DNA of 64,000 bases from Agathobaculum sp. Marseille-P7918 (GTDB lineage Bacteria > Bacillota > Clostridia > Oscillospirales > Butyricicoccaceae), in contig NZ_UYYD01000005.1 of NCBI RefSeq assembly GCF_900625105.1, forward strand, positions 75,883-139,882. The letters are read 5' to 3'. Numbering within the stretch: position 1 is the stretch's first letter; each line of letters opens with the position of its first letter. Under the pieces are notes generated by a model that saw nothing but the letters and a program-made list of their open reading frames with translations, searched no databases and had not been told where the DNA came from. Of the stretch, positions 20,654-58,841 are shown in pieces. Made by a program: the position numbers and the translations under genes.

Positions 20654-21961
20654 TTACATCAGATCGAGCAGCTTGTAGCAGCGCGCCTTGGTGTAGCTCT
20701 GCTTGAAGCTGTAAGACGCCAGCTGGCCGGCCGTCTCGTCCGAGCTTTCCTTGGCTGCGTTGGCCGCGCCCGAGTCGCGTTCCTGCACCCACTGCTTGTA
20801 GCTCTCTTCCTCGGCGGCATACTGGTCCGCGTTGAGCACGGTCGCCAGATAGTCGTACATCTCGACCAGCAGGTTATCCCACGACTCGAACGAGCTTGCC
20901 GTCAGCGCCAGCTCATCCTCCTGCGTTGCGGCGGACGCGATTTGCAGATCGTTCTGCTCGAGCGCATCCATCTGGCTGCTGAAGTCCTGCTTCTGCTGAC
21001 TCTGCTGCTGCTGGGTTTCCTGCTGCTTCTGCTCGTCCTGCTGCGCCTGCGACAGCTGGTCGCGCAGATCGGAGAGCTGCTTTTTCTGGTCGGCGGTCAG
21101 CGTATCGTCCGCATCCAGCGAATCCAGCTTGCCCGCGGCCGCGTCATACTTCTTATCCGCCAGATAGCTCTGCACTTCCGCAAGATCCGAGGCAAACTCG
21201 TCGTCCGACTGCGCGGTCTGCGCCTGCTCGAGCAGGTCCTCGACCGCGTCGTACAGCGCAGAATCCGGGTCGGTCACGCGGTTTTGCAGCTGCTTGAGCA
21301 GCGCGATCGCTTCGGTGTACTGGCCGTTATCCACATACTGCTGTGCGGTCTGGTAATCCTGCAGCATCTGGATGGTCGAGTCGAGCGAGGACGGGTCCTT
21401 GGCCTCGGCCTGCGCGGCGAGGTAATACTCGAGCGCCTTGTCGAAATCGCCGCGGTTTAAGTACTTCTCGGCCAGCGTCAGGTTTTCGTCCGGCTGGCGG
21501 CTCATAAAGAACCACACACCGCCGCCGATCAGCGCGATGATCAGGATCACGACCACGGCGATCACCGCGCCCTTTTTGCCCTTGGAGGGCTTGCGGTACG
21601 GCTTATCGTCCGGATCGGGTTCGGAAAAATAGGTGGTGCGCGGCGCGCTCGGCGTGCCCGAGGCACGGCGCACAGGCGGCACATCGATGGGCGGCAGCTC
21701 CTCCGCCGTCGGGATATGCGGATCGGTCGCGGCGAACGGGTCGCCCGTGGTCACGCCATCGTCCGTCAGGCCGTCCGCGTGATGGTCTTCTTTCATGACC
21801 GCGTCAAAGGCCGAAAGATCGATCGGTCCTTTCAGTTCGTCCGGCAGCGAGGTAAAGACGGCGGTTTCATCGTTGACGCCTTCCTGCTCAACGACCGCGC
21901 CGCAGAATGGGCAGAACTTGCCCGCGATGGGCAGCTCCCTGCCGCAGTTCTTGCAAAGCAT
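20654..21961 (-). CDS. zinc-ribbon membrane protein with TPR-like, Gln-rich and LprI-like regions
   Basis: 435 residues. Order: a zinc ribbon (Cys-x2-Cys pairs CKNCGRE and CPFCGAV, residues 3-22), an acidic disordered stretch, a Lys-rich stop-transfer segment and one membrane helix (about 130-150), an outside region with TPR-like helices, a coiled, Gln-rich segment (about 300-330), and a C-terminus like the LprI/DUF1311 lysozyme-inhibitor domain. The start is chosen from AGAGGAGGAACC just before MLCKNCG. The function is unknown; the topology suggests the zinc ribbon inside and the repeats outside. Confidence 0.75.
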   Translation of the reverse strand: MLCKNCGRELPIAGKFCPFCGAVVEQEGVNDETAVFTSLPDELKGPIDLSAFDAVMKEDHHADGLTDDGVTTGDPFAATDPHIPTAEELPPIDVPPVRRASGTPSAPRTTYFSEPDPDDKPYRKPSKGKKGAVIAVVVILIIALIGGGVWFFMSRQPDENLTLAEKYLNRGDFDKALEYYLAAQAEAKDPSSLDSTIQMLQDYQTAQQYVDNGQYTEAIALLKQLQNRVTDPDSALYDAVEDLLEQAQTAQSDDEFASDLAEVQSYLADKKYDAAAGKLDSLDADDTLTADQKKQLSDLRDQLSQAQQDEQKQQETQQQQSQQKQDFSSQMDALEQNDLQIASAATQEDELALTASSFESWDNLLVEMYDYLATVLNADQYAAEEESYKQWVQERDSGAANAAKESSDETAGQLASYSFKQSYTKARCYKLLDLM

Positions 21962-22005
21962 GGATGGTTCCTCCTCTGAAAAATACAATATAACAATCCG
22001 ATAAT

Positions 22006-22034
22006 AGTATAACATGCGGAAAAGCGGTTGTAAA
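22006..22034 (-). promoter_or_regulatory. sigma-A promoter of the zinc-ribbon/TPR gene
   Basis: TTTACA, 17 bases, TATACT on the minus strand. Confidence 0.75.
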
Positions 22035-22137
22035 CCTTTGTGACGGGAACCAAACAGCCCGCTTTTCCGTTTTTACAGACAGGCGGGAAACCATGGAAAA
22101 AACAGGATTTGTATCGAAACTGAAACCGCGCTTTGGC

Positions 22138-22166
22138 TTGACAAGCCATAGCCCCGACCGTACAAT
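22138..22166 (+). promoter_or_regulatory. sigma-A promoter of the SLH/L,D-transpeptidase gene
   Basis: TTGACA, 17 bases, TACAAT. Confidence 0.82.
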
Positions 22167-22197
22167 AGAATTACTATCGAACAAGGGGGAGTAAACC

Positions 22198-24948
22198 TTG
22201 AAAAAACGTCTTTTCAGCAGCCTTTTGGCTGCTGTCATGTTACTGACCACCGCGTTTGCCGCGGGCGGTGACGTTACCGGCACGCAGCCGAAGGCCGCGT
22301 CCGATACGGTTTTGACCTTTGCGGTCACGCTGCCCGAGGGCACGGAGGCCATGACAAGCGAGCTGGCTGACCAGCTGCAAACCGTGCTCAGCCGCCGGCT
22401 CGAGCAGCTGGCGCTCGAAACCGCGACGGTCACCCTCGCGGAGGACAACGCCTCGATCACCGTCACTTTGCCCGCGGATGCGGACGTGCCGGACGATCTG
22501 GCCGCCTTCCTGACGCAGCCGAACGCGCTGTCCGTCACGGACACGGAAGACAAAATCAGCCTGACGAGCGCGGACATCACCGCCGCGGAAGCCGGCCAGA
22601 TGGCCGAAGGCGACGGCGGCGCGGCTTACATACAGCTGACCCCGTCCGACGACGCGCAGGCGGCGCTGGCCGAGCTGACCGAGGACGACACGCTGTCCGT
22701 CACACTGGACGGCGCGGCCATCGGCAAAACCGCGACCTATGACGCGGACGACGCCGCGCTGACCGTGACCGGCGGCTTGGATCTGGACACCGCCAAGCTG
22801 TACGTCGTGCGCATCACGGCGGGCACGCTGCCTGTCACGCTGACGCTGTCCGACGACGCCCAGACCGAACAGCCGGAAGAGCCGGTCGAACCCGCTTTCC
22901 CGGACATCGCGGGCCACTGGGCGGAAAAAGCACTCAACAAGGCCGTCGGCATGGGCCTGATCAAGGGTGTAGACGGCAAAATGCTGCCGGATGCCGCAGT
23001 CAAGCGCTCGGAAGCCATCGTTATGCTTAACCGCGCGCTCGGCGCGACCGTCACGGATGACACGAGCGGCCTTTCCGGCACGCCGGCCAACGCATGGTAT
23101 GTGGAGGACCTCGGCAAGGCCATCCATCTAGGCATGATCGACGCCAACGACAGCCGCAACTTCGACACCGCCGCCACCCGCGCGGAGGCGTTCGAATGGC
23201 TCGCCCGCGCCTTTGTCTTTGACCGCGCGGAAACCGGCGCGGATGAACTGAGCGTGTTCACCGACACCGCCTCCATGACCGCCGCGCAGCAGCGGGCGGC
23301 CGCCGCACTGGTCGCGGCGGGCGTGGTCAACGGCGTGACCGACACCACGCTTTCTCCGCAGACCAGCCTGACCCGTGCGCAGTTTGTCACCATGATTACG
23401 CGCATCGCGGATCAGATCATCGCCCCGCAGGAGGCGACCGAAGAAGAGCAAACCGAGGATGATGCCCAGACGCCGGCGGCTGTGCTGTCCGGCAATGCCA
23501 TCGTCGCCCTGTCCGAGGACACAGTCTCGGATGTGGAGATCACCGGCGACGTGATCTACGGCGCGGCAACGCAGAAGATCACGCTGGACGCGGTCACCGC
23601 GCATGACCGCATCGCGCTCAAGGGCGCGGAGCAGACCGAACTGAACGCGCGCAACGCCTGCACCATTTCCACGCTTGCGGTCGATCCCGCCGGCACCGCC
23701 GATATCACCCTGTCGGATAACTCCGGCGTGCAGACGCTGGTCATCGCCGGCAAGGGCGGCAAAGTTTCCTTCTCCGGCCAGGCGACCAACATCGAAATCA
23801 CCGCGTCCGGCCGCGAAATCGACCTGTCCGACATGGATGCTGAGATGATCACCGTCACCGGCAGCAGCAACACGATCGTAATGAACGGCTCGGTCGGCGC
23901 GGCGGCGGTCAACGGCGGCGCCAAGAACAATACGCTGACGCTCAACAAAGCGGTCGATACCCTGCTGGTCGCGGGCGTCGGCACCAAGGTGAACGGCCGT
24001 GGCAAGGCCGGCACGGTGGACATCCGCGCGGTGGACTGCGACGTATCTATCACCGCGGATTCCAAGGTTGAAAACATCGACTCCGGCCTGTCCGGCGTGA
24101 CGCTCTCGATGGGCGTGCCGACCAAGGTCAAGGCCGGCGGCTCGCTGGTGACGCAGGTCACGTTCCAGGGCGTGACCGAGCCCAAGATCTGCTCGGCGCA
24201 GTGGTACAAGAACGGCAAGGCCATGGCCAACTACAAAAACGACGACTTTGAGCTGACTTCGGACGCGGTTTCCCGCATCACGACCTATTTCACCTTCACC
24301 AAGGACATGGACACCAGCGTGACCATGGGCTTTAAGCTGACCTATGAGAACCCCTCGACCGGCGAGACCGAAGAGCTGTACGTCGAAAAGACCGTCCCGA
24401 TCGAGAATTACTCGGACGAGTGGTACTACCAGCGCGACGTCAACCGCATCCTGAATCTGGTTTCCTCGACCTATCGCGGCAACTATACCACGTCTTATGC
24501 GGTCAACAACGACTACAAGACCTATGAAAAGGAAGTCTGGGTCAACGCCAAGGGCTATTCGAGCCGCACCCAGTACCTCATCTGGATCAACCGTGCATAC
24601 CAGCACGTCAACGTATTCCAGGGCTCCAAGGGCAACTGGAAGCTCATCAAGTCCTTCCTCGTGGGCACGGGCGCGGCCTCCACGCCCACGCCGACCGGCC
24701 TGACGACGGTTTCCTACAAGTCCGCGGGCGGCTGGACGACCAGCACCTACACCGTGCGGCCGGTCGTCGGCTTCTACCCCGGCACGGGCTACGCGTTCCA
24801 CTCGCGTCTGTGCTATCCGGGCACGGACACCGAGTATGACTTCAGCGCAGGCTATCCGGTTTCGCACGGCTGCGTGCGCATGTACAAGAGCGATGTCAAG
24901 TGGATTTACAACAACATCCCGGTCGGCACAACCGTTGCAATTTTCTAA
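22198..24948 (+). CDS. secreted fusion: SecD P1-like domain, three SLH repeats, L,D-transpeptidase
   Basis: 916 residues from a TTG start with AGGGGGAG seven bases upstream. A signal peptide (KKRLFSSLLAAVMLLTTAFA) is followed by a region (about 30-225) that resembles the SecD periplasmic domain: LSRRLEQLALETATV, a TLPADADVPDDLAAFL segment, and a GGLDLDTAKLYVVRITAG block ending in TLPVTLTL. Three SLH repeats follow (about 233-285, 290-345, 355-403), then a Thr/Ser-rich beta region, and a C-terminal YkuD domain with His868, His890 and Cys892 in SHGCVRM. SLH repeats anchor proteins to the wall; YkuD makes 3-3 cross-links or attaches proteins. The SecD likeness is my reading by eye. Confidence 0.85.
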   Translation: MKKRLFSSLLAAVMLLTTAFAAGGDVTGTQPKAASDTVLTFAVTLPEGTEAMTSELADQLQTVLSRRLEQLALETATVTLAEDNASITVTLPADADVPDDLAAFLTQPNALSVTDTEDKISLTSADITAAEAGQMAEGDGGAAYIQLTPSDDAQAALAELTEDDTLSVTLDGAAIGKTATYDADDAALTVTGGLDLDTAKLYVVRITAGTLPVTLTLSDDAQTEQPEEPVEPAFPDIAGHWAEKALNKAVGMGLIKGVDGKMLPDAAVKRSEAIVMLNRALGATVTDDTSGLSGTPANAWYVEDLGKAIHLGMIDANDSRNFDTAATRAEAFEWLARAFVFDRAETGADELSVFTDTASMTAAQQRAAAALVAAGVVNGVTDTTLSPQTSLTRAQFVTMITRIADQIIAPQEATEEEQTEDDAQTPAAVLSGNAIVALSEDTVSDVEITGDVIYGAATQKITLDAVTAHDRIALKGAEQTELNARNACTISTLAVDPAGTADITLSDNSGVQTLVIAGKGGKVSFSGQATNIEITASGREIDLSDMDAEMITVTGSSNTIVMNGSVGAAAVNGGAKNNTLTLNKAVDTLLVAGVGTKVNGRGKAGTVDIRAVDCDVSITADSKVENIDSGLSGVTLSMGVPTKVKAGGSLVTQVTFQGVTEPKICSAQWYKNGKAMANYKNDDFELTSDAVSRITTYFTFTKDMDTSVTMGFKLTYENPSTGETEELYVEKTVPIENYSDEWYYQRDVNRILNLVSSTYRGNYTTSYAVNNDYKTYEKEVWVNAKGYSSRTQYLIWINRAYQHVNVFQGSKGNWKLIKSFLVGTGAASTPTPTGLTTVSYKSAGGWTTSTYTVRPVVGFYPGTGYAFHSRLCYPGTDTEYDFSAGYPVSHGCVRMYKSDVKWIYNNIPVGTTVAIF

Positions 24949-56155: not shown

Positions 56156-56184
56156 TGAATCTGTCGGAATCTTGTGCTATTATT
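56156..56184 (+). promoter_or_regulatory. sigma-A promoter of dnaA
   Basis: TTGAAT, 17 bases, TATTAT. Confidence 0.7.
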
Positions 56185-56221
56185 ATATTATCTATGTACT
56201 TATATCGACAGGAGGCGCCCC

Positions 56222-57502
56222 ATGGCTAACAATATATTGGAAATGGCGCTCGAACGCCTTGAACGCGATTTCCCGCCGTCCAGCCTTTCCGCCTGGTTCG
56301 ACGATGCAACGGTTGTTTCTTTTACGGACAACCGTTTGATTTTGCATTCCCCGGTCCAGTTCAAAAAAGAATTTATCGATCAGAAGTTCATCGAGCCGCT
56401 GCAAAACGCGCTGTATGAGCTGACCGGCGACCCGATCACGGTCGTCGTCGTCACCGGCGAGTACACCGCGCCCACGACCAGCTCTTCCCCCTACGATGAC
56501 TACACCTTCGAACGGTTCATCGTCGGCTCATCCAACAAGTTCGCGCACGCGGCGGCGCTCGCGGTGGCCCAGCGGCCGGCGGCGGAAAACAACCCGCTGT
56601 TCATCTACGGCAACTCGGGTCTGGGCAAAACCCACCTGATGTACGCGATCGCGAACGTGCTGCGCCGGACGCACCCGGAATTTCGCATCATCTACGTCAA
56701 GGGCGAGGATTTCACCAACGAGCTGATCACCGCCATCCAGGAAGGCAACGTACAGGCGTTCCGCAACAAATACCGCATGGTCGATCTGCTGCTGCTGGAC
56801 GACGTGCAGTTCATCGCGGGCAAAGAGCGCACGCAGGAGGAATTTTTCCATACCTTCAACGCGCTGTACGAAGCGAAAAAGCAGATCGTGCTCACATCCG
56901 ACCGGCCGCCCAAGGAAATCAATACGCTCGAGGACCGCATGAAAACCCGTTTCGAGTGGGGCCTGCTGGCCGATATCCAGCCGCCGGACTTTGAAACCCG
57001 CATCGCGATCATCCGCGACAAGGCAGTCAAGATGGGCGTAGACCTGCCCGACGACGTCTCCACCTACATCGCGGAGAACATCCAGTCCAACATCCGGCAG
57101 CTTGAAGGCGCGGTCAAAAAGATCAAGGCCATGCACGAGCTGATGGGCGAACGCATCACCGTTCCGCTGGCGGAAAACGCGATCGACGCCCTGCGCATCG
57201 AAAACCCCGGCCTCAACCCGACGCCCGAACGCATCATGGAAGCGGTCGCCAACTATTTCTACATCCCGGTCGAGCAGATGATTTCGCAGAACCGCTCCAA
57301 GGACGTTGCCTATCCGCGTCAGATGGCCATGTACATGATCCGTCAGGAACTCGAATATTCCTTCCCGGATATCGCCAAGATTTTCAAGCGCGATCACACG
57401 ACCGTCATGCACGCCTGCAACAAAATCGAGGAGGAACGCAAGAACTCCCGAGAGACCGAAGAGGTCATCAAAAAGCTGCACAACAACATCCGCGGGGAAT
57501 GA
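56222..57502 (+). CDS. dnaA: chromosomal replication initiator DnaA
   Basis: 426 residues. Domain I (about 1-75), a short linker, an AAA+ domain with Walker A GNSGLGKTH and Walker B LLLLDDVQF, and the DNA-binding domain IV with the signature RDHTTVMHACNKI near the C-terminus. It opens oriC and regulates its own promoter. GACAGGAGG precedes MANNILE. The linker between domains I and III is short compared with Bacillus. Confidence 0.98.
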   Translation: MANNILEMALERLERDFPPSSLSAWFDDATVVSFTDNRLILHSPVQFKKEFIDQKFIEPLQNALYELTGDPITVVVVTGEYTAPTTSSSPYDDYTFERFIVGSSNKFAHAAALAVAQRPAAENNPLFIYGNSGLGKTHLMYAIANVLRRTHPEFRIIYVKGEDFTNELITAIQEGNVQAFRNKYRMVDLLLLDDVQFIAGKERTQEEFFHTFNALYEAKKQIVLTSDRPPKEINTLEDRMKTRFEWGLLADIQPPDFETRIAIIRDKAVKMGVDLPDDVSTYIAENIQSNIRQLEGAVKKIKAMHELMGERITVPLAENAIDALRIENPGLNPTPERIMEAVANYFYIPVEQMISQNRSKDVAYPRQMAMYMIRQELEYSFPDIAKIFKRDHTTVMHACNKIEEERKNSRETEEVIKKLHNNIRGE

Positions 57503-57731
57503 AAAACTATCCACAGAAGCCTGTGGATTCCACAAGGGTTGTCCTGTGGATAAAAAAGCAAACTGTGGAAGCTGTGGAGCGGACAGAATTCATCCACATC
57601 CCGCTGTGTACGACATTTCCCGCACCACGTCTGGGTTTGCACGGTTTTTCCCCAATTTCCCCAACCCCTACTACTACGATAAAAACCTATCCTGTTTTTT
57701 CTTACGATTTCCAAAGAAAGAGGAACGACCG
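57503..57731 (+). other. oriC: DnaA-box cluster and unwinding element
   Basis: One perfect DnaA box (TGTGGATAA, 57545-57553) and several near matches: 57507-57515 (CTATCCACA), 57522-57530 (TGTGGATTC), 57564-57572 and 57573-57581 (TGTGGA cores), 57590-57598 (TCATCCACA), 57605-57613 (TGTGTACGA). Downstream are CTA triplets at 57668-57676 (DnaA-trio-like, TAG on the other strand) and the AT-rich 57677-57720. Confidence 0.85.
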
Positions 57732-58841
57732 ATGAAATTCTCCTGTGAAAAAGAAACTCTGCTCAGCCTGATCGGCACAGCCTCCCGTGCAGTGACCGGA
57801 AAAAGCGCCATGCCGCTGCTCGAAGGTCTGCTCGTCACTGCCGATGCCGATTCACTGACCTTGACCGGCTACGATCTTTCCATGGGCATCCGCACCACGG
57901 CCGAAGCCGATATTGTCGAACCCGGTAGCATCGTTTTGAACGCCAAGCTGTTTTACGACATTGTCCGCAAGCTGCCGCAGGACGTCGTCTATCTGGAAAC
58001 CGACGACAAGCTGCTGACCACCATCAAGTGCGGCCGCGCAGTGTTCAACCTGATCGCGACCGAAGCCGACGAATATCCGGCGCTGGCCGAGGTTTCGGCC
58101 GACACCGGCTTTTCTCTGCCGCAGTCCATGCTGAAAAGCATGATTGCGCAGACCATTTTCTCGGTGTCCGACAACGAGAGCAAGCCGATCCACACCGGCT
58201 GCCTGTTTGAGCTGGAAGGCAGCCGCCTGAACGTCGTCGCCGTGGACGGCTATCGCCTGTCCGTGCGCCGCGAAACCGTGGAAGGCATTTCCGGGGACAT
58301 GAAATTCGTCGTTCCCGGCTCGTCGCTGCGCGAAATCGAGCGCATTTTGACTGAAGAGGACGGCGACGTCGAGATTTTCCCCGACCGCAAGAACATCCTG
58401 TTCCGCATCGGCGGCACCACGCTGATCACCCGCCTGATCGACGGCGAGTTCCTCAACTACCGCGCCGCAATCCCCGCGGAATTTGAATATGTCGTCAAAG
58501 CCGACCGCCACGAATTCATCACCTGCATCGAGCGCGTGTCGCTGATCGTATCGGAAAAGCTGAAAAACCCGGTACGCTTCCATTTTGACGGCTCGTATGT
58601 GCAGATGTCCTGCATCACGGCCGTCGGCAAGAGCTATGACGAATGTGCGTTCGACGGCAATATCGAAGATCTGGAGATCGGTTTCAACAACCGCTACATT
58701 CTGGACGCGCTGCGCGCCGCGGGCGACGATACGGTCAAATTGCAGCTCAAGGGCTCGCTCAACCCGATCGTCATTTCGCCGCTCGAAGGCGACAAATACA
58801 CCTATCTTGTGCTGCCCGTGAGGTTGAAAGCCAATGACTGA
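57732..58841 (+). CDS. dnaN: DNA polymerase III beta sliding clamp
   Basis: 369 residues in three homologous clamp domains; [30 protein letters not shown] and the C-terminal LVLPVRL are typical. It tethers the replicase and other partners to DNA. AGAAAGAGGAACGACCG precedes the ATG. The last codons overlap the next gene by eight bases. Confidence 0.98.

Follow-up and report, generated by a model that had tools for sequence, protein, structure and literature searches.

The window analysed here is a 64,000-nucleotide stretch of Agathobaculum sp. Marseille-P7918 (contig NZ_UYYD01000005.1, positions 75,883 to 139,882), in which the gene at 22198-24948 (+) encodes a putative wall protein of 916 amino acids (aa) whose N-terminal domain (N-domain) corresponds to SecD P1 in full, with both base and head, and is of SecD ancestry according to both homology and fold. 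The N-domain stands between a signal peptide and SLH repeats, which are followed by a beta-solenoid-like region, an Ig-like region and a YkuD L,D-transpeptidase. This suggests that an export part, SecD P1, has found a second use in the cell wall, as a module for binding or support. Domain, SLH anchor and enzyme are familiar individually; their combination did not turn up in the literature searched, and it is on that search that we call it new and unpublished.

Identification of the N-terminal domain

The sequence-only reading had likened the N-terminal 200 residues to SecD P1, and profile, profile-profile and structure comparisons all put SecD first. The family profile A1 was built from 19 of the 24 genomes with an ortholog, leaving out three without the N-domain, the diverged copy of G008 and the partial one of G010. 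Against the PDB, its best four matches were all SecD, the next match having an E-value of 0.55. The alignment with the genome's own SecDF by hhalign reached 99.5% over 187 columns. Besides, a base-plus-head fold was predicted with confidence for the N-domain, the same fold as that of the solved SecDF P1, and SecDF occupied ranks 1-9 of the Foldseek search with this model. PF22599 was found in 10 of the 19 family members at E <=1 (best 6.6e-12). Family members other than the window's own are 28-64% identical to the window domain. The similarity to SecD thus lies above background, and the SecD-like motifs quoted in the sequence-only reading are all present in the translation.

Taken alone, the protein sequence from the window matches the NCBIfam secD model with an E-value of 1.7e-4 and 20.9 bits, which does not reach the equivalog cut-off of 244 bits. 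Two results obtained with this single sequence count against the identification: no match to PF22599 (E <=10; cut-off 27 bits) or to PF21760 was obtained, and phmmer against the PDB returned no SecD. They would suit a chance likeness of an alpha/beta domain to SecD, an explanation that is extremely improbable and that we judge refuted by the large gap with which SecD ranks first in the profile, profile-profile and structure comparisons. Three other matches of the single sequence were judged to be due to chance, since they do not come back across the family in the way that SecD does: Cohesin in the N-terminal part of the protein (Pfam, 0.022), present in just one of the 19 family members; Ig_CycH in the second half of that part (Pfam, 0.15); and a myo-inositol-phosphate-synthase-related protein (phmmer against the PDB, 0.015).

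The missing membrane motor and proton path indicate that the wall protein is not a SecD translocase subunit. PF02355, the SecD/SecF membrane region, was not detected in it at E <=1; the genome's own true SecDF carries this region at 5.5e-73. No membrane segment is expected after the signal peptide, where hydrophobicity over 19 residues peaks at a score of 1.33, in agreement with the proposal that the SecD-like piece is free of membrane helices. The mean charge is -22.9 for wall P1 (n = 19) and -16.3 for SecD P1 (n = 38), the window domain having -27. This acidic charge was dropped as a clue, the difference between wall and SecD domains being too small.

Gene structure and domain layout

The reported open reading frame is real, and the features of the gene, in a host genome of 2.83 Mb that its named relatives assign to Agathobaculum (Butyricicoccaceae), are as follows.

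22138..22166 (+): sigma-70-type promoter-like site, with -35 TTGACA at 22138-22143, a 17-base spacer and -10 TACAAT at 22161-22166 (11 of 12 consensus bases)
22183..22200 (+): ribosome-binding site AAGGGGGAG at 22183-22191 and TTG start codon at 22198-22200 (sequence, genus alignment)
22198..24948 (+): whole gene, SecD-P1 / SLH / beta-solenoid-like / Ig-like / YkuD wall protein, 916 aa (translation, Pfam)
22198..22263 (+): putative signal peptide, residues about 1-22, the most hydrophobic stretch of the protein (read from sequence)
22306..22530 (+): SecD P1 base, N-terminal part, residues about 37-111 (profile and structure comparison; boundary from the alignment to the genome's own SecDF)
22531..22770 (+): SecD P1 head, residues about 112-191 (profile and structure comparison; boundary from the same alignment)
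22771..22863 (+): SecD P1 base, C-terminal part (GGLDLDTAKLYVVRITAGTLP block), residues about 192-222 (profile comparison)
22897..23412 (+): SLH repeats, residues about 234-405 (PF00395, 5.3e-18; helical in the full-length model)
23494..24117 (+): beta-solenoid-like region (DUF3060-like), residues about 433-640 (model; weak PF11259 match, E 0.0094, below cut-off)
24118..24417 (+): Ig-like beta region, residues about 641-740 (strands in the model; named by appearance)
24574..24942 (+): YkuD L,D-transpeptidase catalytic domain, residues 793-915, with H868, H890 and C892 present (PF03734, 2.5e-18)

TTG stands at the aligned start in all 22 genus rows, the starts having been chosen by the signal-peptide motif and not by experiment. 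The promoter-like site just upstream is the sole one on the + strand within 21980-22260; compared with this site of 11 matching bases in 12, shuffled sequence contained a mean of 0.4 promoter-like sites of any kind. The -10 core ACAATA lies at most 40 bases from the start in 18 of the 22 rows, window counted.

SLH anchoring and a YkuD domain, both proposed beforehand, were recovered by Pfam with 65.2 bits for PF00395 (cut-off 20.8) and 67.5 bits for PF03734 (cut-off 23.4). Two SLH stretches pass individually, and a putative third repeat is seen by eye and as helices in the full-length model. In YkuD, the catalytic motif, which we take to be H...SHGC.R, is present; H868, G891, C892 and R894 are invariant across the 15 rows of alignment A2, and H890 is found in at least 90% of them. 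The putative beta-solenoid-like region is rich in strands, with a predicted local distance difference test score mostly above 90. The Ig-like region matched no family. The full-length predicted structure models the YkuD part poorly; hence no domain arrangement is claimed.

Distribution and history of the wall P1 domain

The census of the domain order in relatives was favourable to the sequence-only reading. A clear wall-type P1 was found in 20 of the 25 genomes of the genus. In 19 of them a single frame encodes P1 and all other parts of the protein; in G010 the P1 frame and the remainder are on separate contigs. "Genus" is used here as a kinship label; two members (L060 and L061) carry Butyricicoccus names in their records, and the counts by genus genome and by genus locus overlap and are not independent. 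Three genomes (G002, G011 and G024) have merely 76-101 residues before the first SLH repeat, signal peptide included and of low complexity (L028, L029 and L030). A. butyriciproducens carries a diverged P1 (26.5 bits, 1.9e-7 with profile A1), and no ortholog of the wall protein was found in the last genome, which is 82% complete.

Outside the genus, P1 was found in none of 26 more distant loci (no frame above 120 aa matching A1 at E <=10), one of which, L082, has a frame that begins at the sequence end and may be cut. Among the matches listed for 295 genomes of the order, to which the genus contributes six, wall-type matches above 200 bits occurred in four genomes, all of the genus, and the next match was a SecD with 117.6 bits. 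On the tree of the shared SLH-to-YkuD part, the P1 pattern needs two changes, one gain plus one loss costing the same as two losses. A gain is favoured because P1 is absent from all 26 loci outside the genus. Most simply, P1 would have been gained once in the Agathobaculum lineage, lost in one supported clade (99/99) and kept in most species.

In a tree of 62 P1 rows, from which L147, truncated where its contig stops, and L148, which shares its genome with L115, had been removed, 18 of the 19 wall rows form one clade (96/97) that has no firm place next to any of the SecD lineages. At best, wall rows are 27-33% identical to SecD; because of these values and the weak placement, the donor lineage was left unassigned. 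The A. butyriciproducens row, L064, falls outside the wall clade with a branch length of 2.96. We treat it as a diverged wall copy; it could also represent a second, separate origin. In eight chosen pairs, the ratio of nonsynonymous to synonymous substitution rates was 0.19-0.43 for P1, 0.08-0.24 for SLH, 0.02-0.14 for YkuD and 0.15-0.34 for the solenoid-like region. Judged by these ratios, P1 is under purifying selection, weaker than that on SLH and YkuD and similar to that on the solenoid-like region.

SecD P1 outside SecD in other genomes

Unusual frame lengths, second matches and some SecD controls were checked in 11 + 5 stretches, the 11 being drawn from the genus and order searches, in which genuine SecD genes are also among the matches; this sampling gives no frequency estimate. 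In L156:1697-3700 (-), a zinc-ribbon Ser/Thr kinase (PF00069, 6.4e-42) carries P1 as its C-terminal part, preceded by a hydrophobic segment (PF22599, 6.6e-26; PF21760, 1.5e-20). This P1 is 50-68% identical to SecD-length frames of its family, one of which lies in the same genome and gives 62%. The fusion occurs in one of the 20 genomes of that family. Two lipoprotein-like paralogs, L154:104-1525 (-) and L155:188-1585 (+), combine a SurA_N-type N-terminal domain with a C-terminal SecD P1 head; they are 79% identical and are the two copies of a fusion present in one of the three genomes of their family.

Five small proteins consist of nearly P1 only: L141:1522-2283 (-), L142:484-1287 (+), L150:2219-3001 (-), L145:878-1696 (-) and L146:1056-1847 (-). 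They appear lipoprotein-like or membrane-anchored, lipoprotein status being judged by eye. L141, L142 and L150 adjoin secD, and L150 matches via profile A1 only, with 25.3 bits. In the P1 tree the five do not cluster. Since the fusions are scattered and the stand-alone proteins do not group, SecD P1 appears to have been recruited several times outside SecD.

These architectures could be read as those of a mobile extracytoplasmic polypeptide-binding module, repeatedly recruited in Bacillota to chaperone-like lipoproteins, to a sensor kinase and to the only L,D-transpeptidase of Agathobaculum, where P1 would couple export to wall cross-linking by retaining, beside the enzyme, either chains that have just been exported or factors of the Sec site. 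We consider this broad view rather doubtful. As a separate observation, the SurA_N-P1 fusions echo published docking models of SurA with SecDF P1.

Possible role of P1 on the wall enzyme

For the SecD-like domain, the sequence-only reading had offered two roles, reception of emerging peptides and a plain scaffold. The wall protein would be exported through Sec, its SLH part would hold it to a pyruvylated wall polymer, and YkuD would form or edit peptidoglycan links. Because the membrane motor is missing, P1 cannot pull. Severed from any proton motor, it would be a passive binding module, working through the surface for which a hold on emerging chains has been proposed in SecD. In this way it could retain polypeptides that are unfolded or freshly exported, or a protein partner, near the cross-linking enzyme. 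For SecDF, precursors have been proposed to be held in an amphiphilic cavity of the head (PMC8082313), and AlphaFold models in the literature dock SurA onto the SecDF P1 head (PMC9987972). The fusions to SurA_N and to the kinase would be apt for a module that binds or senses. Passive binding of a polypeptide or partner beside the transpeptidase is therefore favoured; we give it about an even chance.

Several observations weigh on the other side. P1 evolves faster than SLH and YkuD, and one clade lives without it. The mean identity of the wall P1 head is 0.425 compared with 0.522 and 0.581 for the two base parts (conservation counts leaving out L059 and L064), whereas a binding cavity under strong constraint would show the reverse. 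The family SecDs show the same order (head 0.536, base 0.705 and 0.736), so that head and base conservation does not decide.

The same observations fit a plain spacer or display scaffold, in which a stable soluble domain sets a distance or shields SLH with no specific binding. Fast divergence, the less conserved head, the natural loss of P1 in one clade of three genomes that have only a short low-complexity stretch before the first SLH repeat, and the orthologs outside the genus that do without P1 all favour a spacer. Yet the base-plus-head fold is confidently predicted despite the low identity of other members to the window domain, P1 is under purifying selection, and a head subdomain would be unnecessary for mere spacing. 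We give a spacer clearly less than even weight.

P1 might instead compete with or mimic SecDF P1 at the Sec exit, placing the transpeptidase near translocons or folding factors and so tying export sites to wall cross-linking. P1 would leave the channel first among the folded parts, SurA is predicted to dock on the SecDF P1 head (PMC9987972), and three free P1 proteins lie beside secD. Such docking is nevertheless unlikely, as wall P1 has a mean identity of about 26%, and 33% at best, to SecD P1, and the protein is expected to quit the membrane for the wall.

That the SecD P1 head holds emerging proteins is a view based chiefly on structures of the complete motor. A motor-free, soluble P1 kept on a wall enzyme through most of a genus makes it possible to study, in a natural setting, what P1 does alone. 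It also hints that the export of proteins and the cross-linking of peptidoglycan may be linked in gut bacteria where a single YkuD enzyme was found, and adds to the cases of SecD parts beyond the translocon.

Genomic setting

The YkuD domain of the wall gene is the only one in the genome at E <=0.001. Exactly one was found in 24 of the 25 genus genomes, always at the place of this gene; none was found in the 82% complete genome, and several other genus genomes are also incomplete. If the SLH part binds a pyruvylated wall polymer, a pyruvyl transferase would be expected alongside. One pyruvyl-transferase domain is present in the genome, fused behind a glycosyltransferase in a 772-aa frame (L153:259-2574 (+), G000:C12).

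The neighbouring gene lies head to head with the wall gene.

20654..22015 (-): divergent neighbour, a zinc-ribbon / one hydrophobic segment / TPR-like protein (Pfam matches)

Its zinc-ribbon and TPR matches are all below the Pfam cut-offs, and it has its own promoter-like site at 22034-22006. Of 21 genus loci, 20 have this neighbour next to the wall gene, and in the other, L047, the contig ends there. It was found in none of the 15 outgroup loci examined. It is retained also where P1 is missing (L060 and L061) and is a candidate partner of the wall protein.

By frame length, some species of the genus have a fused SecD + SecF of about 800 aa and others a separate SecD of about 435 aa, the state being confirmed by domain solely in the genome of the window. 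At 56174-58841 (+), Pfam places dnaA then dnaN; given this pair, the window may contain a replication-origin region.

Comparison with known systems

Compared with SecD and SecDF P1 (PDB 3aqo; PF21760 + PF22599), the wall protein is without the RND-type membrane region, the SecF part and the proton path. Its P1 has about 25 fewer residues between base and head than the Thermus SecD protein, and differs from the P1 of the family SecDs, beyond the low identity given above, in sitting on a wall enzyme. The SLH-YkuD proteins of Butyricicoccus and other Oscillospirales align with the wall protein from the first SLH repeat through the end of YkuD, with 33-38% identity for the five loci from Butyricicoccus that the tree included, but are devoid of SecD P1 in all 26 loci. 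The stand-alone and fused P1 proteins (L141, L142, L145, L146, L150 and L154-L156) resemble the wall protein in having P1 without the SecD membrane motor. Unlike it, they have neither SLH nor YkuD, and apparently represent separate recruitments.
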